Shown here one piece after another: positions 40,490 through 55,365 of a DNA stretch of 64,000 nucleotides; position 1 is the stretch's first letter, and each line of letters begins with the position of its first letter. The notes below the pieces were generated by a model. That model was not told where the DNA came from. It did not search any database and worked only from the letters and a program-made list of their open reading frames with translations. The position numbers were made by a program, and so were the translations under genes. This DNA comes from Hwanghaeella sp. (GTDB lineage Bacteria; Pseudomonadota; Alphaproteobacteria; UBA8366; Aestuariispiraceae). The stretch is taken from assembly GCA_028282025.1 (NCBI GenBank), contig JANQIT010000074.1, forward strand, positions 1 to 64,000, given 5' to 3'.

Positions 40490-40506
40490 TGGTGCGGTCG
40501 AGAAGA
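40490..40506. repeat. att direct repeat (distal end of island)
   Basis: tggtgcggtcgagaaga, identical to 55279-55295 (3' end of tRNA-Leu). Confidence 0.9.
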
Positions 40507-40590
40507 GACGGACGATGACTCGACACACAGCCCATAAGATACTGAATTTAATCAAATTATTCCACGAAATCTATAACACAAATAATTCAT

Positions 40591-40625
40591 AACATTAGTG
40601 TATAGCAAAAACCAACACTAATGTT
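40591..40625. promoter_or_regulatory. Perfect 11-bp inverted repeat, putative operator
   Basis: aacattagtgt-atagcaaaaacca-acactaatgtt, about 95 bp upstream of the 40720 gene. Confidence 0.4.
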
Positions 40626-40719
40626 GAAACCGAAACGCTCGAATCCCGCTATATGATCTTGAGTCTCTTAAAACAGCGAAAACTGAAACACCGAAGCCAT
40701 CTAAATAGAGGTAATATTG

Positions 40720-41679
40720 ATGGTCGCCGACCTCTCAGAATGCCCGATTTGTGGGTCCAAACTGACGACTCCGTCATCGACAATCGGGATGCTCGATGCG
40801 TATCGCTACGACTGTCCAAACTGCGGGCCTTACGAGCTTACAGGAACCGCAGATCATCTGATAGTACCATCGTTGGCCGGCGCACCAGCAAAACGGCCTA
40901 TTGTCTCACACCATGTTCGGAGGTGGTCTACCGGGTCGGAAGTGCCAAGGTTGGATTGGGATCAGTGCAAAAATTTGCTCGAACGCGGGGAACTGCCGAC
41001 AGTTCATGAGCAGTCCGAGAACCTTATTCGATTCATTGGTGATTCAACGACTGACCCAGGGAAGGGCCACACGTTTAAAGCTTCGAGTGCTCTTGCAACC
41101 GTTGGAGCGCTATCGCCAGAGTCAATTGCGTTTTGCTTGAGCGGCCTTGCAGAAGAAGACTTAGTCAAAGTCAGATCAAGGACACTCGATGGCGAGTCTA
41201 CAGTAGTTCTAACGTTTCACGGCTGGGGTCGATATGAAGAACTTCGCCGTGGTAAAACGTCGGGCACAAAGGCATTCATGGCGATGGCCTTTGGCGATGG
41301 AGTTCTAAATAGCCTGCTCAATGACCATTTCAGGTCGGCGGTGGCGCAAACTGGGTTCCATCTCACAAGGCTTGATGACGCCCCGAAGGCAGGGAACATC
41401 GACAATCGAATGCTGGCAGAAATCCGCTCATCACGCTTTCTAATCGCCGACCTTACCCACGATAATTCGGGGGCATACTGGGAGGCTGGCTTTGCGGAGG
41501 GACTGGGCAAACCCGTTATCTACACCTGCTCAAATGAAGTTTTCAGCGATAAAGGGACGCATTTTGACACGAACCACCATCAAACTGTTCTGTGGGATGC
41601 CGCTAGCCCTGAAGCTGCGTGCGACTTGCTTAAGGCCACGATCCGGAACACGTTCCCAGATGCCAAACAGGAGGACTAA
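40720..41679 (+). CDS. Zinc-ribbon plus nucleoside 2-deoxyribosyltransferase-like (TIR-like fold) protein; candidate defence protein
   Basis: CPICGSKL...CPNCG zinc ribbon; AFMAMAFGDGVLNSLLNDHFRSAVAQTGFHLTRLDDAPKAGNIDNRMLAEIRSSRFLIADLTHDNSGAYWEAGFAEGLGKPVIYTCS. ATG 40720 with gagg upstream. Confidence 0.8.
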   Translation: MVADLSECPICGSKLTTPSSTIGMLDAYRYDCPNCGPYELTGTADHLIVPSLAGAPAKRPIVSHHVRRWSTGSEVPRLDWDQCKNLLERGELPTVHEQSENLIRFIGDSTTDPGKGHTFKASSALATVGALSPESIAFCLSGLAEEDLVKVRSRTLDGESTVVLTFHGWGRYEELRRGKTSGTKAFMAMAFGDGVLNSLLNDHFRSAVAQTGFHLTRLDDAPKAGNIDNRMLAEIRSSRFLIADLTHDNSGAYWEAGFAEGLGKPVIYTCSNEVFSDKGTHFDTNHHQTVLWDAASPEAACDLLKATIRNTFPDAKQED

Positions 41680-41724
41680 AAAAATCAGACCAGAGCAGAG
41701 TTGCCCCTACTCCGGCCCATTGCA

Positions 41725-41889
41725 CTACGCCTTATCCGCTAGGCGGACACGACGCTTTATAGGACGTCTCTCAATGCGCCCGCCCCCGGCAGTGCGATAG
41801 ACAATCCGCCCTGAGTCGTATTCCTCGTCGTCGCGTTTACCACCGCCGCCTTGGAGCGCCTCAAACCTCTTCTGGTCAAAACCAGCCAC
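41725..41889 (-). CDS. Small basic protein (54 aa), translationally linked to terminase
   Basis: GTG start with aggaggttaggt upstream: MAGFDQKRFEALQGGGGKRDDEEYDSGRIVYRTAGGGRIERRPIKRRVRLADKA*. Absent from ORF track because it is <60 aa. Confidence 0.6.
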   Translation of the reverse strand: MAGFDQKRFEALQGGGGKRDDEEYDSGRIVYRTAGGGRIERRPIKRRVRLADKA

Positions 41890-41891
41890 AC

Positions 41892-44186
41892 CTAACCTCC
41901 TAATTTCTCTGCAATTCGATCTTGGAAACTGTCAAACGTCATCCCGTGTCGAACGTGATGACCACCTTGTTCGTATTGTGCGAGTTGTGCCTTTAACTGC
42001 TCAATGAGCAGCGCAAGGTCCGACGAAGGAAGCCCCATAGCGACTTCATCGGCATGGGTCTCTATCACCGCGTTCAAGCGCTCCCTTAGCTCCTCAGCGT
42101 TCTCATCTTGAGCCGCCCAGGCGTCCAACATGTCGTCTGGAACCGCGCACATACGGATTGGGAGCTTTCGAAGCCGCTCAGCGCTGAAGCGAGCACTTGC
42201 AATGTAGGCTGCTGGATCTGCGCACAGGATGTCCTTGAACGCGGCTACGGCGTAGCTGAGAGCGTCTACAATGTCGTCGTGCTTGAGCCGCCGCCCATCG
42301 TAATTGATGCCAGTAAGTTGGTTTACAAATTCGATACCGCTATCTGGTGACGTTAGCACCGCCTTGCAAACAAACACTCGTTTCGAGGCGAAGGCCGGAA
42401 CCAATGTCCCAATGATACGCGCACCTTTCTTTTGCTTCCCGGTTGTGACCGGCTCCACATTGAGTGGATAGCCCCTAGCCGCCAGTTCACGCGACAACTG
42501 GCTCGCAAACAGACCATCACGCTCTTGTTCCACATAAACACAGTTCGCCCTGTGCAAAGCGATCAAACGTGCGCACTCCTGGATAGATGACTGAACGGTT
42601 TCGGTTCTGACCCCAACAGCCTGTCTAACGATGACAGCGCCCCCGCCGGTCGATGATGCTATTGCCAGCCCAATCGCGTCACCTTTACCAACAAGCCCAC
42701 CCGCAGGGTCAACAGCCGCTACTGTCAAAGTGTAGGGACTCGAGTCACTTGAAACCTCAGACACGCCCCTCCAGTTGTCGTCTTTGGCGGCATTTCCCTT
42801 AGAAAGCCCAGAGATCACTCCACCCCCACCTCTCAGCACAATCGGTGCTGTCGGTAACAGCGGATCGAGATCGACCACACTTAGTGACGATATCCTGATG
42901 GGCCGCTCATCGGTCGCGGCTTGGGACAGATCAATGCGCCAGTGCAGGGCGAAGAGCCGCGCGGACATATTTCGCTTTCTTCCAGCAATATCGTCTGCGC
43001 TAAACCGATCCGGCCAACGGCTATGGAACACCTCCTGGCCGTTAAGAACGTCGGACTGGAAAAGACATGCTCTATGCACGTCCCACTCCCCCGACTCCAC
43101 AAGGCGTCCATACAGAGACATTTGGGACTGGGGTGTGCCCAAAACGATGATGCGGCTTTGCGGTCCAGGAACGATGACATTGTGAGCCTCAGAAATTTGG
43201 TCCGACAGCTTGTCGATTGCCTCAGCGCTGTCATGCTTTGGGGTCTCCACATCGTCCAGGATGATTAGGCGTGCACGCTTACCTGTGATCTGTCCGGTGA
43301 TACCGATTGATCGGAAACTCACAGACATCCCAAGTTGCCCGGTCGCGGGCCCAACGACGAATTGGGACATGTTGTCTGGGCTGTCGTCTGCAGGTGTCAG
43401 CTCACCAAGAACGGGGGAACGCTCAATGAGATCTCGAACCATACGGAGCATATCGCGCGCATGGCTTTCACCTTGTGACACTACGAGAATCGTCTCGTTC
43501 TCTGGGTCCCGCCACAACCGCCAGAGTGCGTAGAAGGCTGTGAAGGTGGACTTTGCAGAGCCCCTTGAGGCCAAGACGAGAATGTTGCGGCACTCGGACA
43601 TTAGCCCACTCACGATGTCATCATGGATCGGCCCAGGATCACACCAGCCGGTAACCAAGGGTCTCACCACCGCTCGGACGAAAACCCAGAAAGCTATCGT
43701 CTCATCACTCATTCGGCCAAAGCCAGCGGGATCAGTCTTCAGCCGCGTTGCGGCTTTGATTGCCGTCAGTAGTTCGTCCTGACGCACTAGATCTGGCCGC
43801 TTGGAGCCAATCAGCTCTGTTAGCTCGGCCACTGAACCCGACACCTCTTCAATGAAGCGCTCTATGTTCGATTCCGGTTTTGCTGTATACGTAGATACCG
43901 AGGCAGGGACTCCGACACTTGTCGACCACTTTTTGTTTTCACGTCCGATAGCCTCGCCGTTTGGAGCGGTCGCTGATTTTCTTCCCTGACACTGGCGACA
44001 CGTCGTGTGCCACCCAGTCTCCGAAGACTTCAACAGCGCAAAATTTTCGTGCCCCAAAGATTTAGTCGATCCGCAAGAAACGCACTTGAAGGGCTGACCT
44101 AGGTGAGCTTCGGCAACTGGCCCCGGAACGAGGGCTCTGGACTTTCTCTGTGTGCCTTTGAATTGGCCTTTTGTTTCTTTCGTCAT
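41892..44186 (-). CDS. terL: Phage terminase large subunit (T7 gp19-like) with N-terminal zinc-binding module
   Basis: NILVLASRGSAKSTFTAFYALWRLW Walker A; RLIILDDVETPKH Walker B; VAAVDPAGG...RRLKHDDIVDALSYAVAAF nuclease domain; N-terminal CVSCGSTKSLGHENF...CRQCQG. Confidence 0.88.
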   Translation of the reverse strand: MTKETKGQFKGTQRKSRALVPGPVAEAHLGQPFKCVSCGSTKSLGHENFALLKSSETGWHTTCRQCQGRKSATAPNGEAIGRENKKWSTSVGVPASVSTYTAKPESNIERFIEEVSGSVAELTELIGSKRPDLVRQDELLTAIKAATRLKTDPAGFGRMSDETIAFWVFVRAVVRPLVTGWCDPGPIHDDIVSGLMSECRNILVLASRGSAKSTFTAFYALWRLWRDPENETILVVSQGESHARDMLRMVRDLIERSPVLGELTPADDSPDNMSQFVVGPATGQLGMSVSFRSIGITGQITGKRARLIILDDVETPKHDSAEAIDKLSDQISEAHNVIVPGPQSRIIVLGTPQSQMSLYGRLVESGEWDVHRACLFQSDVLNGQEVFHSRWPDRFSADDIAGRKRNMSARLFALHWRIDLSQAATDERPIRISSLSVVDLDPLLPTAPIVLRGGGGVISGLSKGNAAKDDNWRGVSEVSSDSSPYTLTVAAVDPAGGLVGKGDAIGLAIASSTGGGAVIVRQAVGVRTETVQSSIQECARLIALHRANCVYVEQERDGLFASQLSRELAARGYPLNVEPVTTGKQKKGARIIGTLVPAFASKRVFVCKAVLTSPDSGIEFVNQLTGINYDGRRLKHDDIVDALSYAVAAFKDILCADPAAYIASARFSAERLRKLPIRMCAVPDDMLDAWAAQDENAEELRERLNAVIETHADEVAMGLPSSDLALLIEQLKAQLAQYEQGGHHVRHGMTFDSFQDRIAEKLGG

Positions 44187-44246
44187 TTGTCTCCAAAATG
44201 AGAGAAGGGAGCCGCAGCCCCCTCATTCTCAACGTCCTGATCTTCC

Positions 44247-44786
44247 TCAGGTCTCTCTTTCTTTTTTGCTTATGTCGCGTAGGTCCTTGCCCAACTGTAA
44301 GCCGGAACCGATGGCGTTGAACAATGCCCCCCGGCTCGAGGCTCTGGACTGTTCCCGCAGCCCTTGGATTTGGGCCAAGGTTCCCAGCTGGGACGACTTC
44401 GACTGGGCTTGTATGCGTTGAACTTCGTTCTCCGCGTTCCGCTCAATCCGACTAATGTCTATTCCTTCATTGGCACCAACTTCGACCACGAACGGGGTGA
44501 GGTTAGCGATTCCCATCTCACCAGCAGCGGCCTGGATGGTGGCGAGCTCCTGGTTTGCTAAACGTTCGCGATCTGAGATTTGTTCGGTCTCAATTTCACG
44601 AACCTCTCGTTGGAGCCTTTGGTTCTCTTGAACAATGAAGGCATGGTTTTGGTTTGCAATAGCCGCCGACCGTTCTGCGGCCTTGGTCTGCTGACGTGCT
44701 TGGGCAAAGCCGTTCGCAGTGCTAGCCAATGCTGAACCAGCGGCCAGGACTTTTCCAAGTGTCAGAGCCTCAAGTCCTGTGCACAT
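44247..44786 (-). CDS. T7 gp14-like internal virion (core) protein
   Basis: AAGSALASTANGFAQARQQTKAAERSAAIANQNHAFIVQENQRLQREVREIE...AAAGEMGIANLTPF resembles T7-like internal virion protein B; strong RBS ggaggt. Confidence 0.65.
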   Translation of the reverse strand: MCTGLEALTLGKVLAAGSALASTANGFAQARQQTKAAERSAAIANQNHAFIVQENQRLQREVREIETEQISDRERLANQELATIQAAAGEMGIANLTPFVVEVGANEGIDISRIERNAENEVQRIQAQSKSSQLGTLAQIQGLREQSRASSRGALFNAIGSGLQLGKDLRDISKKERET

Positions 44787-44792
44787 ATAAAG

Positions 44793-45686
44793 TTACCTCC
44801 GAATTACTTGGGCATCACGATAGCGGGACGGGTTATTCCGCTTGAGTGTGTCCCATGCAGATTTTTCAACTTCGATCTTACGACCCTCAACCATAACCAA
44901 GACAGTGTGCGAGGAGCACTGGCCAGTTTCTCGACGGCCTCCTTCAAGCCCGGGCAGAGTTGCTGTTGAAGTCACATACTTTGCGGCCCAGCTCTCAAAC
45001 GTGCTCATCTGGCCTAGCCGGACCACCTCAATTCCAACGCTGTAGACTTTGTCGGAACCGTACTGCTGGTGAGCCCAGTGCCAGAAACCATCGAAGTCAG
45101 TCAGCCCAGCAGATTGCTGAAGGTGTTGGTTTATGGACTGCTCCACGTCGTGTACCACTGCTTGGGCCTGAGCGACGAACTCCGACTTGCCGATGCCGTG
45201 GGCATCTGCCAATTCGTCCACTCCTGACGGCAGTCGAGTCCGATCAAGTAGAAACTCAGACATAGCCTGTGTACCTGCTCCTTTGCCAAGTTCGTTGTCG
45301 ATAAAGGGGAGCCAGTTGCCCAACGCATCTGCTGTTTCAGAGGATACTTCTAGATCACCGCCCTGGGCTTCTTGGTTCGTGTCTGCTGTGTCGGCAGAAA
45401 AAGTCTCTTCGAGCAGCGTGTCCTCATAGAGGCCCTCAGTGTTCTTGCGTATGAACCCGCGATTGGCGGCAGCGTCGACGGTCATCTCAATGCCTTTGAC
45501 CGTAACAAGGTCGTCCGGCTGTGGAGCCCTACCACCCAAAGAGCTGCCATTTCGGCCAACTGCGGTAGACATAATCGGACCGCCGTTTTGAATGGAAGTG
45601 TGGCAGGGATCGAGCAAGTGACGTTCACCTCCCGACTCGTATCTGGAGACCCGGACTTCCGGCTCCGACGTTTCAAGCTCTGACAT
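44793..45686 (-). CDS. Unknown island protein, possible structural or scaffold-like protein
   Basis: Starts MSELETSEPEVRVSRYESGGERHLLDP, RBS caggag; ends 6 bp before gp14-like start; two VxVxGxxxxVxxxA motifs near N- and C-termini. Confidence 0.6.
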   Translation of the reverse strand: MSELETSEPEVRVSRYESGGERHLLDPCHTSIQNGGPIMSTAVGRNGSSLGGRAPQPDDLVTVKGIEMTVDAAANRGFIRKNTEGLYEDTLLEETFSADTADTNQEAQGGDLEVSSETADALGNWLPFIDNELGKGAGTQAMSEFLLDRTRLPSGVDELADAHGIGKSEFVAQAQAVVHDVEQSINQHLQQSAGLTDFDGFWHWAHQQYGSDKVYSVGIEVVRLGQMSTFESWAAKYVTSTATLPGLEGGRRETGQCSSHTVLVMVEGRKIEVEKSAWDTLKRNNPSRYRDAQVIRR

Positions 45687-45775
45687 ATTTTCTCCTGTGT
45701 TGTCAGCGTTCGATGTAAAAAAAAGCGGCCCAATTAGGACCGCCAAATCTAGTTGTCTGTATTTTGATAGGCCGG

Positions 45776-45976
45776 CTACGCTGCTCCAATAAGAGCATTC
45801 AGGTTTCCGACCACGGTTGCCTCCCGCAGCGGGCAGTGTGGACTCTGAACCTCCCAGGATTGCTCCCCAGACATTACTTCTGAGGATGGGCCCAACTTCT
45901 TCATGGTGATCTCTCCTGCACCATCAATTCGGACTACATATGTGTCCGAGGCGTGGTGGTGGATGAATTTAGGCAT
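45776..45976 (-). CDS. Unknown small island protein (66 aa)
   Basis: MPKFIHHHASDTYVVRIDGAGEITMKKLGPSSEVMSGEQSWEVQSPHCPLREATVVGNLNALIGAA; RBS aagga. Confidence 0.55.
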   Translation of the reverse strand: MPKFIHHHASDTYVVRIDGAGEITMKKLGPSSEVMSGEQSWEVQSPHCPLREATVVGNLNALIGAA

Positions 45977-46313
45977 CGAATTTCCTTTTCTGTTTGGGTT
46001 TGCTAGCCTTACGTTTGGACTGCAACAAACGTCCGAGAGACGCACGTAACCACCCCGACATAATTCAGGTAATTAGGTGCTCTGAGGTAGATTGAGTGGA
46101 TCTGTTGGGCTTAAGGCGGACCTAGAGTTTTTCTCAAACACTAATTGGATTGACCGACACAACGACCCCTCTGAGGATCAAATTTAGGTCCGTCTATTGA
46201 GTGGCTCTTAATTTGCGGCCTTGCCCCGCCGCGAATAAAGCACAAATCCATTGAGGGGGTATAGTCACCCTAAGAACAGTATAAGGGCTACAGTACCCCC
46301 CTTAGTGTCTGAA

Positions 46314-48095
46314 CTAGGCCGCCTTTGAGAAGGCTTTCGCTTGGCCGCATTTCACGACCGACACACCAAGGTCATACATACTATCGATGACCTTCTCCTT
46401 CTTCGTCAGCTTCCTGAAGTTCTCTTTGGATACACCGAGCCGACCTCTAGCTACTGGAAATGTCAGCGTTTGTCCGGGACTAAGGTCGGCCAAAGTGCGA
46501 ACCAAACGGTCCGCTTGGGTAGTACCTTCACCAGCCATACGCGTACCAATTGGAACCCAAGTCTGAACTTTAGCGCCTGGAAACCATTCAGGAAGTCTGT
46601 GTCTTATTCCTGTATTCGGCGCAGCCATAACCCAAGCCTCACACGCACCACAATCTCCACCATTCGGCAATCTAACAGAGGCTCTGCACAGTGCTTGCAA
46701 GATGTGGTGTCCGTGCTCACCGAGACGGACTTCAGCGCGTTCTTCGGAGCTTACCTCTTCGTCGGAACTCAGCTCCGCAGAAGCCCGTTTCATAGATTCA
46801 TAGTTGTATTCCGGATAGAACAGTGTTCCGGCCAGAATGACATTGGGAACGTCCAAGTGTTCGTTGGTTGCTGTGTGGCGGCCCCAGTTGAGAAATGAGA
46901 CATTACTCGGTTGGTTCAAGAGTCTCTTGAGTTCCTTCGGGACATCATTGATACCAATGTTGGAACGACCGATCTTGTTCTCCGCCTTGTGGTGCACAAC
47001 GAGCCATTTTTCATTCGGTTTAGTGTTTATTGTGTTCGCTATGGCTTGAACGTATTCCGCAAACCTGTCCGGCTTACGCCATGCGGTCTTTGAACCAGAA
47101 ACTGGCCAAAAATTCACAGTCAGATTTCTGTACATCTTCCGAGCAGAGGGCAGCTGACACGCGACACCTAGCCGTTCTTGATCTGCGTACTGTTGACGAA
47201 TCCTACCCGAGGCATCCGTAACCACGACCGGGTATATGTCCTTAGGCAGAGTTGGTCTGTAGTGCAGAGCAGCTGTGTCACTACCGTGCCGGCAAACACG
47301 GGTCTGCTTGCCGGAAATCGCGGCAAGATCTAACACCATTTCTCTACCGAGATCATATCCAAGGGCGCAATCATGATAGTCTTCCACATGTGTGTGGTGG
47401 AGAAGGCGGACCCAATCCGGGAAATCAAACTCCGTACGGTCTTTCCACCCCTTGAGCGCCGTTAGGGCCTCAGCTAAAGCCTCTGCCGCATCAGACTCTC
47501 CGAACTTGGAAAGTAGTCCGATGGCCTCCCCAAGGGCCTTCTTGTTAGCGTTGATTGGGCGGGTCGTAGAGAACGTTTCATCCCATATGCGAAGCGACCG
47601 ACAATCGCCCTCGAAGTAGAGTTCATGTGCCTCGCGTAAGGGCCGACTTTTGGTCAACCTTCGGACCCGTTCGTGGGTGGTCAACAGGATCGGCTTGGAG
47701 TCTAAAGCGTCAGATTTTTCCTCGGACGTCCAAAAACCGACCCTAGTGCCACACACACGCATACCTACAATTTGGTCGCGTACGTCGCGCGCTTGGTCAA
47801 TCCGCTCCACACAGACGAGAGCCCCCGGGTGCGTCGAATTCGCGTGGGCTTCGTCCAGCGCCGCCAAGAAACTGACAATGGCGGTCGTTTTGCCTATACC
47901 TGGGTCCAGCGTGGCCAAATAGGCTAGAGGCTTTGCCCGCCCATGCGCAGCGTCGTCAAAGGCCGTCAGGAGCGCTCCAAGTGCAGTCCACTGATCCTCT
48001 GAGAGGGTCGCCCCTCTTGTGTCCATAGACTGTTTGAGACGCCAATGCGCGGCACTGGCGACTTCGGGTAACTGTACCGCCAATTCTTTCTCCAA
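46314..48095 (-). CDS. SF2/P-loop helicase-like protein (possible island replication protein)
   Basis: YLATLDPGIGKTTAIVSFLAAL Walker A; RSLRIWDETFSTTRPI Walker B; C-terminal ILQALCRASVRLPNGGDC motif VI-like; TTG start. Confidence 0.65.
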   Translation of the reverse strand: MEKELAVQLPEVASAAHWRLKQSMDTRGATLSEDQWTALGALLTAFDDAAHGRAKPLAYLATLDPGIGKTTAIVSFLAALDEAHANSTHPGALVCVERIDQARDVRDQIVGMRVCGTRVGFWTSEEKSDALDSKPILLTTHERVRRLTKSRPLREAHELYFEGDCRSLRIWDETFSTTRPINANKKALGEAIGLLSKFGESDAAEALAEALTALKGWKDRTEFDFPDWVRLLHHTHVEDYHDCALGYDLGREMVLDLAAISGKQTRVCRHGSDTAALHYRPTLPKDIYPVVVTDASGRIRQQYADQERLGVACQLPSARKMYRNLTVNFWPVSGSKTAWRKPDRFAEYVQAIANTINTKPNEKWLVVHHKAENKIGRSNIGINDVPKELKRLLNQPSNVSFLNWGRHTATNEHLDVPNVILAGTLFYPEYNYESMKRASAELSSDEEVSSEERAEVRLGEHGHHILQALCRASVRLPNGGDCGACEAWVMAAPNTGIRHRLPEWFPGAKVQTWVPIGTRMAGEGTTQADRLVRTLADLSPGQTLTFPVARGRLGVSKENFRKLTKKEKVIDSMYDLGVSVVKCGQAKAFSKAA

Positions 48096-48550
48096 AGCTG
48101 TGATTAAAATATCCTGTGGGCGCGGCCCGCCCTAGCGGTTGAGACCACCAGAGCGGGGCGTGAACAGACCGCACAGGAGATTGAGGCTCCGTACTGGCCG
48201 GAACCTTCGCGGTGGCTTCAGGCACCATCGCAAAAAAAGGGTGTAGTCAATCCTGCCGGAACTTAGCTGATCGCTTGGTGAATTCTTATCCGTCTGTTCT
48301 CTCAGGCGGATGATCTGGTCTACGACTTCGAGACCGTTCTTCTGTTGAGCTGGGGCCCTCAGGTGTTACATGACAGAGGAAAGCGCGAGCAAACACCTCA
48401 GAACTAGCGGGTGGCTGCGTGTCTAGGTGTCTCGTCGTGTTTCCCTGGTTCGGTCACCAGACCTAAGTCTCCGAACAGAGGTACTACCTCCCTCTAGGTG
48501 AAGCCTTTTTCTGTTACCTGTCCTGCACCTGACGAAGGTGGCTTTAGCAC

Positions 48551-48844
48551 CTAGTTTTGCGGACCGAGATTGTCTGGGCGAGACGAACGCCTCAGGTTCG
48601 CGACCACTGGGCCCGCAACGACCCAAGGCCTCAAAGGATTCAAAACCTCGTGGCTTATGAAAACCGCCACGCCTTCTAACCCGGTCAGATATCCTTCAAT
48701 GTACTGGCATTCCGCTTCGATGACAGGCGCGCCCCAAGCCACGCCCGGAAACTCTCTCTCAAGCGATGCTCTTATGCCAGCCGTAGCTTGGATCAGAGCA
48801 TGGGCTGACTTTTCGCTTGGGAACTGGATAACGTTGTCGGACAT
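48551..48844 (-). CDS. Unknown small island protein
   Basis: MSDNVIQFPSEKSAHALIQATAGIRASLEREFPGVAWGAPVIEAECQYIEGYLTGLEGVAVFISHEV; RBS aggag. Confidence 0.6.
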   Translation of the reverse strand: MSDNVIQFPSEKSAHALIQATAGIRASLEREFPGVAWGAPVIEAECQYIEGYLTGLEGVAVFISHEVLNPLRPWVVAGPVVANLRRSSRPDNLGPQN

Positions 48845-48913
48845 TTTTGGTCTCCTAGTCGGCACCTAAACCACTTGGCATCGCTGGACTTCAATTACAG
48901 TAGTTGGTTCTTG

Positions 48914-49585
48914 CTATTTTTCGGCAGCCTCCAAAACGCGCTTCACTTGTTGCGGGTGCCACACCCCACCACGGGCAGACGGAATGCCGCGTGCCGTCAG
49001 CTCCGATGCGATGGCCCGAAGAGACGACGCCCCACCCTCCCGAATGTGGTTGATCACATGCATTAGGTCTGCCGACCGCTCCTGCGCTATTTGGCGGACT
49101 TTAGCTGAACCCAAGGCCCTCCCCTTCGCGGCCGCCTCGGCAGACAGATTCGCGGGATTGCCCAGAACCCTACCCCGCCGCTTGGCGGCTTTAAGTGCGG
49201 CCTTGGTGCGTTCCGAGATGGCTTTGCGTTCTTGCTGAGCGACGACAGCCATAATCCCAACAGTCATCTCGTTGGCGTCCGGCATGTCTGCGGCAACGAA
49301 GCGCGTCTTGCTGTTCTGCAGCGTCAATAGGAATGCTGCATCACGAGACAGCCGGTCCAGCTTTGCTACCACTAACGTCGCATTGTAGAGACGACAAACA
49401 GAGAACGCCTCGGTCAACCTCGGACGATCATTCTTTCCACCGCTCTCAACCTCGGTGAACTCTGCCGCCATAGACCAATTCCTGCCTCTGACGAGGTCGG
49501 TGACCGCAGACTTCTGGGCGTCTAACCCAAGCCCCGACCTACCCTGCTGGTCCGTCGATACGCGATAGTATGCAACGTATTTCAT
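48914..49585 (-). CDS. Serine recombinase (resolvase/invertase family)
   Basis: MKYVAYYRVSTDQQGRSGLGLDAQKSAV; VVAKLDRLSRDAAFLLTL; QQERKAISERTKAALKAAKRRG; C-terminal HTH SSLRAIASELTARGIPSARGGVWHPQQVKRVL. Confidence 0.93.
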   Translation of the reverse strand: MKYVAYYRVSTDQQGRSGLGLDAQKSAVTDLVRGRNWSMAAEFTEVESGGKNDRPRLTEAFSVCRLYNATLVVAKLDRLSRDAAFLLTLQNSKTRFVAADMPDANEMTVGIMAVVAQQERKAISERTKAALKAAKRRGRVLGNPANLSAEAAAKGRALGSAKVRQIAQERSADLMHVINHIREGGASSLRAIASELTARGIPSARGGVWHPQQVKRVLEAAEK

Positions 49586-49930
49586 GTGTCCCAACCCTCT
49601 GAACGTCCATTTACTGCCTTGTGACAATCATATTGAGTCGGGTGAGTCCGCTTGCAAGGGAAATTTGTGTGCGATGGACCGCCGCTTTGGGCTCATAATC
49701 TGGCAGACACCAGGGTCGATTCTAGAGGCCACTGATGCGCGGCAAGCCCTGCGCCCTTGCACACTAGGAAGATCTCCACGAGTGAACCCAGCGACTCCAG
49801 AATGGCCTCCTGTGGCCCCCTATTCGACCAGCATTGGGGCGGGGGGAGGGGTCCGGGGGAAAATCAGAACACGCGCTGGGGAAACTGACATCGGGCACAA
49901 GTAGATTGGCACCCGGGGTGGCCAATGAGG

Positions 49931-50977
49931 TCACTTCCCGGGACCCAAACGCTCGACTATGGAAACAACAGATTGGTCGAGTGGTGGCAAGCCAAGGGAC
50001 AGGCCCAGCGAATAAAGATGGGCCACAGTCAAGATTCCCAGACCACCTTGGACCACTTTTCCGTAAGTGCTATTCGCCACCGCTCCCAGAAAGGCTTTGA
50101 TGTTGGCTCTCGCCGCCCTGGCGCTTTCCTCGAACTGCTTGTCAGAGGACTCGACAGAAAGCAGATCATTCAATCGCCGCAGCTCGTCACGTACTTCTCG
50201 CAACAGTGCGGTCAACCTTTCGGCGTCCTCAACGTCCCCCCAAAGCGGGTCCGCGTTTGTTGCTCGGTCATGCAGCCGCCCATCGTCATAGTCATCGATC
50301 AACCTAACCAAAGCTGACACTAGCAGTTTGTAATGGGCCGGGTTTGCTCTAATCCTTGCAGCGACCGACTGGTCTCTGTCCCGCCACGTGACTTTGGCTT
50401 CTACCTGCTCTTTGGAAAAGGGTGCGATTTCCCCTACTTCGCCAACGACCGGTTCCTCTTCAATTACGTTGAGAACTGAGTCGTCTTCTATCGACCCGTC
50501 TAGGAGTCCCGCACCTTCAACTAGTTTAGAAAGAGCGGACGAATGATCACCGTTGTCATCTACTTGGAAACCTTGGCCCCTCATGAATTGGACGGCTTGG
50601 TCCAAGTACTCATCGGAAGGATACTCAATCCAGATTGCGTCTGTTGACAAGTCAGTTGCCCCCGAGCCGCTTCCCCAACTCGACAGGCTTGCTGACTCAT
50701 TGTCAGCCCTCGGCACTTCAACCCGAACCGGGTAACTGCTCCCAACACAGGACTTATCGTCTACAACGGCAACTACTGATACAGTGGCCCGACTTCGCCA
50801 GGGGTTTAACGGAAGCTCCTTTTCAAGGGCCCATGACGCAGCTTTGTCAAAAGCTATATGTGCAATCTGCCTCGCGACATATTCGTTTGGAGCAGTCACG
50901 CGACAGCGCCCTTTCCGGATACTGCGCTCCAAGTCAGGATGGTTCAGGTCAACAGGCTCAAGAGTGTACTTCGGCAA
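49931..50977 (-). CDS. Unknown island protein with C-terminal hydrophobic segment
   Basis: 348 aa; TTG start; coiled region DAERLTALLREVRDELRRLNDLLSVESSDKQFEESARAARANIKAFLGAV then VVQGGLGILTVAHLYSLGLSLGL. Confidence 0.55.
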   Translation of the reverse strand: MPKYTLEPVDLNHPDLERSIRKGRCRVTAPNEYVARQIAHIAFDKAASWALEKELPLNPWRSRATVSVVAVVDDKSCVGSSYPVRVEVPRADNESASLSSWGSGSGATDLSTDAIWIEYPSDEYLDQAVQFMRGQGFQVDDNGDHSSALSKLVEGAGLLDGSIEDDSVLNVIEEEPVVGEVGEIAPFSKEQVEAKVTWRDRDQSVAARIRANPAHYKLLVSALVRLIDDYDDGRLHDRATNADPLWGDVEDAERLTALLREVRDELRRLNDLLSVESSDKQFEESARAARANIKAFLGAVANSTYGKVVQGGLGILTVAHLYSLGLSLGLPPLDQSVVSIVERLGPGK

Positions 50978-51183
50978 CCTTTCTGGCCCCCCTCCTTACA
51001 ATGCAACAAGCCCAAACGCGCACATTCAGCGACAAAAGAACTGATGGAGTATTGTTTCGCGGCCACTAACTTCAAGCCACTCATCGGCGACCTAAAATCT
51101 AGAACCTCAGTTGGGCTAGTTCACACTTTCCCGCTAAACTTGTCGAGCCGCTCGTCAGCTAATACGGTTTTCACTGCCATAAA

Positions 51184-52377
51184 TTGAAATGTGAGACAAA
51201 ATTGAAAATCGAAGATGTAACTCTGTTGGCTGGACTCGGACTGATTGGGGCGGTTTTTATTCTGTTCTCCAAATACAAGACTGCAAGGAAAGAGTTAGCG
51301 AGCACTTCACATCGAGCACTGATTGTGTCCCGCCGATTGGATGAGCTTGGTCCTCAGGCAAACAAGCTTGAGCGTAGGATTTACGAACTTGAGAAGGCGA
51401 TCCAAGCAAAAGACCTTATGTATGAGCGCCTATCTGCGGAAGATGGCGACCCGCTTCTAGGCATTGCCTCACTGGTCGCGGACCACGCAACTCGCCAATT
51501 TGAATACTCTGCAAGATATCTTGAGACCAAACAGCGTCCTGCACGCAAGGAAGCTGAGAGAATACGCACACTCAAGGAAGAGACCAGGGAGCATATCAAG
51601 AGGCTCAAACTGATGGAGTACAAGTACGAGTATTTGCTGGGGCTCTTTCCCGACCTCGCACTATACGCCGACGATGTTGAATCGCTGCGCAGTCTCTCCG
51701 AGGCGATAAGTGTAACCGAAGCCGAAGCTGAAGCCGACCGAACACGAAACTACCTTTCGCCTGAGGAATACCAGAAACTCCCTGAACGAAAGCGCAATCA
51801 GCTCGCTCTTGATCGCTACATCCGAGGTAAAAAATCGACGTGGCAGATTGGTCGTGACTATGAGCTCTTCGTTGGCCACCTCTACAAACAGGAAGGCTGG
51901 GAGGTACAGTACACGGGAATTGAGCACCGGCTCATGGACATGGGCCGTGATCTTGTCGCGAAGAATGGTGCGGAAATACATGTGGTACAGTGCAAATACT
52001 GGTCCCGCGATAAAGTAATCCACGAAAAGCATATATGCCAATTGTATGGTACAGCGGTCCAATACCAACTCGCGAATGGTGTCGAGGCCGTGACGCCTGT
52101 CTTTTACACCAACATCGAACTATCAAGAACAGCTCAAGAGTTCGCCGAACACCTGGGCGTCCTCGTCTTTCGAGAGGAACTAGGCGATTTCCCACGCATC
52201 AAATGCAACATCAATCGCGGAGCCGACGGAGAACGTGTCAAAATCTATCACCTTCCAATGGACCAGCAATACGACAGTACAAAGATTGACAAACCCGGCG
52301 AGTTCTTCGCGTTCAAGGTCAAAGACGCAGAGCGATCAGGCTTCCGACGCGCGCTCCGATGGCGAGGCTCCAAATGA
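51184..52377 (+). CDS. Membrane-anchored coiled-coil restriction endonuclease-like (Mrr-type) protein
   Basis: N-terminal TM TLLAGLGLIGAVFILFS, long coiled coil, C-terminal Mrr-like domain GRDYELFVGHLYKQEGWEVQYTGIEHRLMDMGRDLVAKNGAEIHVVQCKYW (D...QxK catalytic motif). TTG start; exact start uncertain. Confidence 0.8.
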   Translation: MKCETKLKIEDVTLLAGLGLIGAVFILFSKYKTARKELASTSHRALIVSRRLDELGPQANKLERRIYELEKAIQAKDLMYERLSAEDGDPLLGIASLVADHATRQFEYSARYLETKQRPARKEAERIRTLKEETREHIKRLKLMEYKYEYLLGLFPDLALYADDVESLRSLSEAISVTEAEAEADRTRNYLSPEEYQKLPERKRNQLALDRYIRGKKSTWQIGRDYELFVGHLYKQEGWEVQYTGIEHRLMDMGRDLVAKNGAEIHVVQCKYWSRDKVIHEKHICQLYGTAVQYQLANGVEAVTPVFYTNIELSRTAQEFAEHLGVLVFREELGDFPRIKCNINRGADGERVKIYHLPMDQQYDSTKIDKPGEFFAFKVKDAERSGFRRALRWRGSK

Positions 52378-52441
52378 CTTAGAGGCCGTTCGCCAATCAT
52401 TCGGTCCAATTGGTAGCTGATATGCGACATGGGGGCGTCTT

Positions 52442-53884
52442 ATGGACGTAGCTGTCCTCACATTGAACAGTCGGGAAATCTCGATTGTAGTGTGGACTAT
52501 TCTGTATCTGGTATTGTCGGTATCAGTCCCTCTCTTCCGACCAGTAGCCATCTCTTTAGGTCAATTCCTCTGGTCCGCTCGCAGCTACATCCTTCATAGG
52601 CGTGTCCGGAGAGCGATCTACGCCGCTGCGCTGTACAACCTTGCAGTGGTCTGGCTTCTGCACAACGTCGGTCTGTGGTTCCTCTCGGACATCAAAGCGA
52701 CCACATTGTGGTTCCTAACGGTCGTGTCCGTCGCAATGTTCCGCGTTCAGAAGCGGCTTGGCGACGTACCCGATATCCGCGAAAGCGTGAAGGAGCTTGC
52801 CGCGATCACAGTGGTGCTCGAATTCATCGTAGAGTTTCATACCTTGCCGCTATGGGCCGAAGTGATAGCAACACCTGTCATCCTAGGCATAGTGCTCTTC
52901 TACACTCTGCTCAGAAACGATGCCGACTTGAAAACCGCTAAGGGCGTAGCTCGCTGGGTACTCATTGGTTACGGATTAGTCGTCCTGGCTAATGGCGTGT
53001 ATCATGTATGGGAAACCCCCGGTCTCTTCTTCCAAATCTCCACGCTCAGGGATTTCCTCTTGATCCCAGTCTTGAGCGCCTTGTTTCTTCCTTTCCACTT
53101 CCTTATGTCGACTTTGGTCTCGTTCGAGATTGCCATCAGGGATCTACAAGGACTTATCCCCAATCTTTCGCTTCGCCGGTATACGGCCTTCAAGGCGTTG
53201 AGGGCGTTCTTTTGGCGGACCGAGTTACTAAAGTGGTGGATGATCAGATTTCGTAGGAATCCACCAGAGGACCGAAACCAAGTAGACGTCTCCATTGCGA
53301 AGGTACTCGCGCTGGCCAACGCTTCCGCCGATCCTCCAGCAGTCGATCCTAGTCTAGGCTGGTCTCCCTATTGGGCGGGGAAGATATTCGTCACGGAAGG
53401 TCTTCAGACAGGCTGGTACGATGAACTCGCGGGGCGTGAACATTGGTTCTCACACTCAGAATATCTAAAGTTCGGTCCAGGCATCGACGTGAACCACATT
53501 ACCTACCACGTCTATGGCAATGAGGAAGTGGCCCGTTGCTTGAAGCTTTTCTTGCACATCAACGAACCCCACGACGAGTCCGAGGCCCTAGCGGTGTTCG
53601 AAGCCCTAGCCCACAAGCTATGTCATCAAGTGACCTCCCAAGAGCTACCAGACGCTATCGACTTCAAGGCGCTGTTCCGAGACACCGTGAAAGCGCAGAT
53701 AGGCGACTATGAGGTAGTACTCAACCACTTTTCCTCCGAGTGGGACGGCCGCAAGGACTACGAGATGCGGTTCTCGGTCCGCAAACCTCCATCCACCGAA
53801 GAGGAGATGATTTGGCGATGTTCGCACGGAGCCGGAACCTCAAACGACGAACTCATCAAATCGCTCAACGGGTTTATCGATTGA
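52442..53884 (+). CDS. Multi-TM membrane protein with soluble C-terminal domain, operonic with Mrr-like nuclease
   Basis: Several hydrophobic segments in N-terminal half (ISIVVWTILYLVLSVSVPLF, ATTLWFLTVVSVAMF, WAEVIATPVILGIVLFYTLL, FLLIPVLSALFLPFHFLM); 64 bp after the nuclease gene. Confidence 0.7.
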   Translation: MDVAVLTLNSREISIVVWTILYLVLSVSVPLFRPVAISLGQFLWSARSYILHRRVRRAIYAAALYNLAVVWLLHNVGLWFLSDIKATTLWFLTVVSVAMFRVQKRLGDVPDIRESVKELAAITVVLEFIVEFHTLPLWAEVIATPVILGIVLFYTLLRNDADLKTAKGVARWVLIGYGLVVLANGVYHVWETPGLFFQISTLRDFLLIPVLSALFLPFHFLMSTLVSFEIAIRDLQGLIPNLSLRRYTAFKALRAFFWRTELLKWWMIRFRRNPPEDRNQVDVSIAKVLALANASADPPAVDPSLGWSPYWAGKIFVTEGLQTGWYDELAGREHWFSHSEYLKFGPGIDVNHITYHVYGNEEVARCLKLFLHINEPHDESEALAVFEALAHKLCHQVTSQELPDAIDFKALFRDTVKAQIGDYEVVLNHFSSEWDGRKDYEMRFSVRKPPSTEEEMIWRCSHGAGTSNDELIKSLNGFID

Positions 53885-53911
53885 ACCTCTCTTGACTCTC
53901 GCAGTGAAACC

Positions 53912-55201
53912 CTAGGAAACCCTCCTCAGCACATCCTTTGAATACACCTCAAAGCCCATCTTAATCCGCTTCTTTTCCGGTCCGCTCGAATACACGTCAG
54001 TCAGCAGCTTCCCGGTCTTATGGCCGATCATGCGTTCTTTTAGCGTCGGCTCTATGCCCTCTAAGTTCTCTAGAACTGTTCCGGCCCATCGGCGAATGCT
54101 GTGTAGGTCCAGGCCCTGCTCCTTGGCGTTCGGTAGGGCCTCGGCAAGGGTCGCCCTCATGCGCTTCGATAGAGAATGCCCAAGCTTGTGGTCCTGACCA
54201 CCGGGCCTTAGTTCCTCGAAGAGTTGGTCCTCAGGTTGTTTCCCTCCCGTACGTCGATTGAGCACCTCTTGTGCCCGCTCAGAAGGGAAGAACACGACGC
54301 GGTTCCCCGCCTGTGTCTTCGCGTCCCGGATATGAACCTCACCATTTGGTTGGACGTCTTTCACCCGCAGCTCGCAAATCTCGTTTAGGCGGCAGCCGCT
54401 CTCTATTAGCAACAACCCGACGTCGTACTGCTTGGGGCTCTGGTTCCAACGGCGCTCAAGAGCCTTGTAGAAGATCGTCAACTCCTTGTCGGTAAAGGCC
54501 CGCTTCTTCTTTGCCGCCTTCGGGAGTTCGCGAGCCAAGTCAGCGAAAGGCGAGATCCCCTGGCAATACTCTCGCTGGCGTGCCCACTTCCAAAGCAGGT
54601 TCATAGCACCAATGTACCGCCCGAGGGTCTTGGGAGAACGTCCTGATTTTTCCAGGTGATCGCTGAGCCACTTTGAGGCCGTCCTTGGCCGGACCTTGTT
54701 CATCATTAGGTCGCCCATAGCTTCTATGAACAAGCCAACAGCATGGCGACGGCCGTCTATGGTTCCCGGCGTAACCTTCCCTTGAAGAGACGCCAACCAC
54801 TGATCAGCCACCACCGATATGGGTACGCCCTTGCCGGTGGCGATATCAAAGTATCGCTGCGCTTCTGCCTCATGCCCTTTGTCGGCTATGTCCTGTGCAC
54901 GGTCGTCTATGATGCCCTCATAGATGTCCCTTAGGTCCTCCCTGGGCTCGTCCAGCAGCACGCCAGCGGCCTCTTGGGCCTCCTCGGTGCCGCCCAGCTT
55001 TGAGGCCACTAGTTGCTCAACCTCCCGAATGATCTCATCCAGCTTGGCGTGCTTCCTGCGCCGGGCCTGATCAAGGTCTCGGGTCTTCAGCGTTCTGGAT
55101 ATGGAGTCTTTGCCGACGATCTTCCGCCATTTGGTCGGAACTACGTACCGGACATACCAAGTATGCCCCTGCCGGTAGATGTTCTGGGTCATATAAGACA
55201 T
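53912..55201 (-). CDS. int: Tyrosine-type site-specific integrase
   Basis: LLLIESGCRLNEICELRVKDV; HSIRRWAGTVLENLEGIEPTLKERMIGHKTGKLLTDVYSSG (R..HxxR..H..Y); adjacent to tRNA-Leu. Confidence 0.95.
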   Translation of the reverse strand: MSYMTQNIYRQGHTWYVRYVVPTKWRKIVGKDSISRTLKTRDLDQARRRKHAKLDEIIREVEQLVASKLGGTEEAQEAAGVLLDEPREDLRDIYEGIIDDRAQDIADKGHEAEAQRYFDIATGKGVPISVVADQWLASLQGKVTPGTIDGRRHAVGLFIEAMGDLMMNKVRPRTASKWLSDHLEKSGRSPKTLGRYIGAMNLLWKWARQREYCQGISPFADLARELPKAAKKKRAFTDKELTIFYKALERRWNQSPKQYDVGLLLIESGCRLNEICELRVKDVQPNGEVHIRDAKTQAGNRVVFFPSERAQEVLNRRTGGKQPEDQLFEELRPGGQDHKLGHSLSKRMRATLAEALPNAKEQGLDLHSIRRWAGTVLENLEGIEPTLKERMIGHKTGKLLTDVYSSGPEKKRIKMGFEVYSKDVLRRVS

Positions 55202-55278
55202 GTAAGCCCCACGGATCTATAACACAATCAGGTGTTATAGATTTCGCAAGACTTTGATTTTACTGAATAAATCAGAAA

Positions 55279-55295
55279 TGGTGCGGTCGAGAAGA
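55279..55295. repeat. att direct repeat (tRNA end of island)
   Basis: tggtgcggtcgagaaga, identical to 40490-40506. Confidence 0.9.
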
Positions 55296-55365
55296 CTCGA
55301 ACTTCCACTCCGGTTAAGGAACAGCGACCTCAACGCTGCGCGTCTACCAATTCCGCCACGACCGC
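55279..55365 (-). tRNA. tRNA-Leu(GAG), CCA-encoded; 3' end is the island attachment site
   Basis: Reverse strand GCGGTCGTGGCGGAATTGGTAGACGCGCAGCGTTGAGGTCGCTGTTCCTTAACCGGAGTGGAAGTTCGAGTCTTCTCGACCGCACCA; anticodon stem-loop CAGCG-TTGAGGT-CGCTG; paired acceptor stem. Confidence 0.95.

Follow-up and report, generated by a model that had tools for sequence, protein, structure and literature searches.

Island at tRNA-Leu(GAG)

The 64,000-nucleotide stretch of Hwanghaeella sp. analysed here (contig JANQIT010000074.1 of assembly GCA_028282025.1, positions 1 to 64,000; "the window") carries in its tRNA-Leu(GAG) gene an integrated island of 14,806 bp (40490-55295). An exact 17-bp direct repeat (TGGTGCGGTCGAGAAGA) is found at each end. 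The island-distal copy is attL (40490..40506, + strand), while attR (55279..55295, + strand) is the 3' end of the target tRNA gene, called by ARAGORN at 55279..55365 on the - strand. Adjoining the tRNA gene is that of a tyrosine integrase (429 aa, 53912..55201, - strand), which matches DUF6538 (4e-12), Phage_integrase (4e-7) and phrog_1 (1e-37). Within 64 kb, TGGTGCGGTCGAGAAGA and GACCCACGCAGCGACGG are the only two 17-mers that are directly repeated, and no third copy of TGGTGCGGTCGAGAAGA with up to 2 mismatches occurs in the window. GC content is about 0.60-0.65 outside the island and 0.47-0.58 inside. This is a mobile island whose integration in tRNA-Leu is site-specific, and its own tyrosine integrase lies next to the site.

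The synteny of tRNA-Leu and lipB is conserved in genomes of the family, and matches to this stretch cluster closely in the family genomes searched. In the only genome of the same genus (G386), tRNA-Leu has lipB and the homologous autotransporter gene as neighbours; 1.4 kb separate the autotransporter gene from tRNA-Leu and the island is absent. A near-copy of the att core (16/17) is found in G386 1.07 kb from tRNA-Leu (L111:14187 and 15257), and is possibly the trace of an element that occupied the site earlier. The host assembly is a draft of 361 contigs with an estimated contamination of 6.3%.

The P9-gp14-TerL gene block

Three closely spaced genes on the - strand encode a protein that we term P9 (317 aa, 44793..45746), an internal virion (ejection core) protein of the T7 gp14 type (179 aa, 44247..44786), and a T7-type large terminase (TerL, 764 aa, 41892..44186). 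The gaps are 6 bp between P9 and gp14 and 60 bp between gp14 and TerL. A strong terminator-like hairpin (15 pairs and a T run; 41686..41719, - strand) lies 3' of TerL.

TerL matches phrog_38 (8e-75), PF22530 (1e-8) and the PDB entry 4bij (4e-35). It aligns with the T7 gp19-type structures 4bij/8dgc over motor and nuclease, and has extensions of about 140 aa at the N-terminus and about 100 aa at the C-terminus. Both the Walker motifs and all three acidic motifs of the nuclease are present, and judging from these intact motifs the enzyme is presumably active. It shows 31% sequence identity to TerL of Rhizobium phage RHEph01; in a tree it falls, on a long branch, with RHEph01 and a T7-like prophage, apart from the podoviral module that is common in alphaproteobacteria (see below). 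The gp14-type protein matches PF24072 (1e-12), and its alignment matches the T7 gp14 structures 7ey7.

P9 represents an undescribed family and is the hallmark of the element, with homologues in six loci (L029, L032, L103, L149, L150, and L151). Although it is the gene that defines the family best, it had been missed by the initial annotation. Its start is probably the ATG at 45686 because a weaker terminator-like hairpin sits at the annotated TTG. The AlphaFold2 model of P9 is poor (pLDDT 50) and inadequate for a fold search. P9 was also considered as a T7-type scaffolding protein; its W-A-x-x-N... pattern is scaffold-like but the profile-profile comparison gave an E-value of about 0.2, compared to 2e-6 for two scaffold groups used as control, and PF05396 did not match the P9 from the window. 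Neither this assignment nor one as a gp13-like protein was retained after comparison.

Related islands carrying P9

The islands that encode the six P9 homologues are bounded by tRNA repeats wherever their ends could be traced. In three of the seven P9 islands, gp14 follows P9 at a distance of 2-14 bp (6 bp in the window, at tRNA-Leu; 2 bp in L029, at tRNA-Val; 14 bp in L032), and one of the seven has a gp15-like protein instead. The L029 element, from a metagenome-assembled genome (MAG) labelled Gammaproteobacteria, spans 11.5 kb between 46-bp tRNA-Val repeats and codes for helicase, zinc protein, P9, gp14, excisionase, and integrase. L032, from a Rhodospirillales MAG, has helicase, an HNH-like protein, P9, and gp14. 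The gp15-like protein belongs to L151 (12.8 kb, 16-bp tRNA-Leu(CAA) repeat), together with integrase, P9, resolvase, and an ATPase. It has no PHROG match but scores 54 bits against RHEph01 gp15, while 50 shuffles reach at most 24.6.

The remaining members are L149 (7.0 kb, 29-bp tRNA-Ala repeat; integrase, resolvase, zinc protein, and P9), L150, where P9 adjoins another tRNA-Ala, and L103 (13900-14814), with a large serine recombinase, resolvase, distant helicase, HNH protein, and P9 beside a fragment of a ComM/Mg-chelatase-like gene. The latter arrangement suggests integration in comM via the large serine recombinase. We did not count G070 and G464 (L152, L153), where the matches to P9 are weak, as members.

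Portal, major capsid protein (MCP), and tail proteins of RHEph01 have no match in any P9 island locus; the P9 loci found later were also checked against the corresponding proteins of the alphaproteobacterial module. Among the related islands, TerL is confined to the copy in the window, and what they have in common are ejection proteins without a shell.

A second island type is found in Aestuariispira insulae (L084; tRNA-Ser, 29-bp repeat, 13.9 kb), where gp13 and gp14 are encoded with an integrase; portal, MCP, and tail genes were not found in this island. The L087 locus of genome G280 has gp14, an integrase, and a similar serine recombinase.

Other genes of the island and the helicase family

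The island encodes a 593-aa protein (46314..48095, - strand) which has no sequence-family match and was assigned through the fold of its confident AlphaFold2 model (pLDDT 82). The top Foldseek matches are XPD/DinG (2e-10), which identifies it as a DinG/XPD-like superfamily 2 helicase. It is probably the replication helicase of the element family. A small serine recombinase of the resolvase/invertase type (48914..49627, - strand; PF00239 [Resolvase], 1e-25) has relatives at 50-57% sequence identity in islands L027, L035, and L103.

Near the attL end, a 320-aa protein (40717..41679, + strand) combines a zinc-ribbon-like N-terminus with a C-terminus resembling TIR/nucleoside 2-deoxyribosyltransferase domains (PF05014 at 1e-5, below cut-off; PADLOC TIR effector model at 1.6e-4). 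From its sequence it is probably defence cargo. A homologue (26% sequence identity, 5e-24) is encoded in a DinG-helicase island of Geomonas oryzae (L042:14098-14925), so the gene may travel with this island family. Toward the integrase, an Mrr-type restriction endonuclease (397 aa, 51184..52377, + strand; PF04471, 6e-10) is further defence cargo and is probably membrane-anchored. The adjacent 480-aa membrane protein (52442..53884, + strand; no family above cut-off) is, from its position, a possible partner. Family matches were not obtained for a 348-aa protein (49931..50977, - strand) and a 104-aa ORF (48551..48865, - strand), nor in Pfam, PHROG, or NCBIfam for an 89-aa ORF (45776..46045, - strand).

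Pfam- and PHROG-type scans detected no capsid, portal, tail, lysis, or RNA polymerase families among the 12 main ORFs. The initial annotation had described just this set: a repeat ending a tRNA gene with an adjoining integrase, two recombinases, a helicase-like protein, a T7-type TerL and a gp14-like core protein, without the remaining phage genes and with intact ORFs. Our analysis agrees on each of these points; TerL and gp14 are intact and were assigned by several methods. The placement of defence cargo at both ends is sustained in part: the Mrr nuclease and the TIR/nucleoside-deoxyribosyltransferase-like protein occupy these positions, but the PADLOC matches are weak.

The DinG/XPD-like helicase has at least 22 relatives in islands, many of which adjoin tRNA genes; their cargo is type I restriction-like or of another kind. 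Of 24 helicase loci, 13 have a same-cluster integrase and 10 a small serine recombinase. Examples with defined ends are L025 (10 kb, repeat of at least 60 bp), L031 and L043 (bounded by a duplicated tRNA), and L035 (18-bp repeat). Members of the P9/DinG-helicase family differ in which of the four defining genes they hold; the island in the window has all of them (tyrosine integrase, serine recombinase, DinG-like helicase, and P9). When TerL, helicase, and gp14 were compared to viral contigs and phage records, only distant TerLs were found, plus a single viral contig with the helicase (L048), in which no virion gene was recognised.

Podovirus-like modules in the host genome and the class

The genome that contains the window has a second podovirus-like module on contig C271 (G000:C271:17253-39872; L115, L116), with portal, scaffold, MCP, tail tubes, and fibre. 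It is broken up by a transposase and by small genes present in duplicate, and its MCP shows about 43% sequence identity to that of the f1 module described next. This module is possibly a helper or a decaying prophage.

A compact podovirus-like virion module (MCP, tail tubes, fibre, TerL, and hydrolase) is found near DUF952-pyrD in several alphaproteobacterial families (L128, L130, L131, L133, L134, and L135 in f1; L089 and L140 in f94; L139 in f128; L142 in f52), and near DUF952 only in L138 (f156). The MCPs of these loci show 67-97% sequence identity to the G105 copy, and no integrase or replication genes were recognised in the stretches examined. The TerL of this module is present in many more genomes, and of the 60 TerL matches found across the class, most represent this conserved podoviral module rather than island relatives. 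From its shared site and its conservation, the module seems to be ancient and passed on vertically; it is a candidate for a gene transfer agent of podovirus type. A module of the same kind with additional portal and scaffold genes occurs at one and the same site, near murJ and a helix-turn-helix-lnt gene pair, in two species (L080, L081; f91); its MCP shows about 52% sequence identity to the f1 copy.

Comparison with known satellites and phages

The island was compared to PICIs, cf-PICIs, P4, PLE, PICMI, VEIMEs, and tycheposons (PMC11389934, PMC10690885, PMC10803314). It has the general make-up of a satellite, being an att-bounded integrated element with an integrase and without virion structural genes. 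With PICIs/SaPIs it shares an att-site island of about 10-15 kb, an integrase, a replication gene of its own, defence cargo, and packaging genes. PICIs redirect helper packaging through TerS or Rpp (PMC10690885), whereas the island has a full T7-type TerL, an ejection core protein, and a DinG/XPD-like helicase; a TerS family match was not found, the ORFs at 45776-46045 and 48551-48865 being without any match. cf-PICIs and the MulchRoom/MiniFlayer satellites likewise have their own large terminase but also encode MCP, portal, and connectors (PMC10690885); from the cf-PICI set (MCP, portal, connectors, TerS/TerL, and HNH), TerL alone is present in the island.

PICMIs are similarly small, with an integrase and without capsid remodelling genes, and are satellites of virulent phages. 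They are defined by AlpA and a DUF3987/DUF5906 primase beside fis (PMC10803314); these families have no Pfam match in the island, which is located at tRNA-Leu. P4-like and PLE markers (Sid/Psu/alpha primase; PLE core genes) gave no Pfam or PHROG match. VEIMEs and tycheposons, which are found in virions, resemble the island in being cargo-bearing elements that integrate in marine bacteria, but are defined by virion recovery or by their own hallmark genes. In the literature consulted, we found no report of ejection proteins in VEIMEs or tycheposons. A T7-like (Autographiviridae) prophage would share the TerL and gp14 families, but portal, MCP, tail, RNA polymerase, and gp15/16 are absent from the island, and among the RHEph01 virion proteins only TerL has a match in the window (tblastn).

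Interpretation

In podophages, gp14, gp15, and gp16 reside inside the head, are ejected first, and form a trans-envelope channel (PMC8954989, PMC11784390). We lean, with a little more confidence than doubt, toward the island being a phage satellite which supplies its own ejection-core parts, here along with a motor, to the particles of a podovirus helper. Upon helper infection or induction, the island would excise and replicate. Its TerL would dock on the helper portal and package island DNA, and its gp14, with P9, would enter the internal core of the helper. The trans-envelope channel through which the particle then ejects would be a version belonging to the satellite. Relatives devoid of TerL would use the motor of the helper, and the cargo would keep out competing phages. 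Island sizes of 7-15 kb fit a satellite.

It is very unlikely that a T7-like prophage once lay inside this tRNA island and left TerL, gp14, and P9 behind. In favour of such a remnant, every virion-type gene is podoviral, and contig C271 holds a separate, interrupted podovirus-like module. However, the ORFs are intact, the gene order, gp14-TerL together with P9 and a DinG helicase, is unlike that of T7-like phages, and the same gene subset recurs in unrelated hosts. Such recurrence of a capsid-less subset, tightly coupled and intact, at att sites that differ speaks for genes in use and against decay. The initial annotation would have taken full podoviral modules in relatives as a sign of a decayed prophage; none was found in the P9/DinG-helicase islands, and the G386 site is empty. 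We consider it at least as improbable, if not slightly more so, that the island exploits the C271 module of its own genome as a helper prophage or gene transfer agent-like system. C271 does provide portal, scaffold, MCP, and tail tubes, and a genome-wide search for T7-type TerL matched only that of the window, but an insertion sequence and other genes interrupt the module, there is another terminase-like gene at a distance of 15 kb, and the estimated contamination of the assembly has to be kept in mind.

More weight, though still well short of an even chance, is given to a defence island in which gp14, gp15, and TerL act as anti-phage decoys that are produced when a podovirus invades and poison its core assembly or packaging, and which is moved by its integrase and by other means, not by virions. 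The restriction/TIR-like cargo, the type I restriction-like genes of the DinG-helicase relatives, and the retention of single core proteins, as expected for dominant-negative parts, are consistent with decoys. A decoy would have no need for the ATPase and nuclease motifs that TerL retains, and P9 pairs with ejection proteins in four elements. Because TerL is intact, we favour a use in delivering particles over decoys.

Several observations weigh against a satellite: most DinG-helicase islands are without a recognised virion gene, IMG/VR contained no relatives of P9, gp14, or TerL at the sensitivity used, and TerL sits on a long branch in the tree. From the satellite proposed in the initial annotation, the mobile island stands, and the satellite reading is strengthened by the recurrence of the capsid-less subset (P9 with gp14 or gp15) in unrelated islands, while we infer the dependence on a podovirus helper. 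The combination that it describes, an own TerL and a single internal protein, is specific to the window copy; the architecture shared between islands is P9 plus an ejection protein.

A broader form of the satellite reading, which we put forward tentatively and hold to be somewhat less than an even bet, is a satellite family specialised in delivery. Each island would bring its own ejection-core protein (gp14, gp13 with gp14, or gp15), usually with P9, in place of capsid remodelling. Satellite DNA inside helper particles would then be injected via a channel that the satellite defines, and the packaging motor would have been captured in addition by one lineage. The satellites from the literature compared here act on capsid size or DNA choice. 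If the proposal is true, parasitism can extend to delivery into the next cell, which would suggest why ejection proteins are mosaic. The island is a defined capsid-less, ejection-protein-bearing system for asking about the role of gp14. To our knowledge, few podovirus satellites are known in Alphaproteobacteria, and P9 would be a new marker for them.

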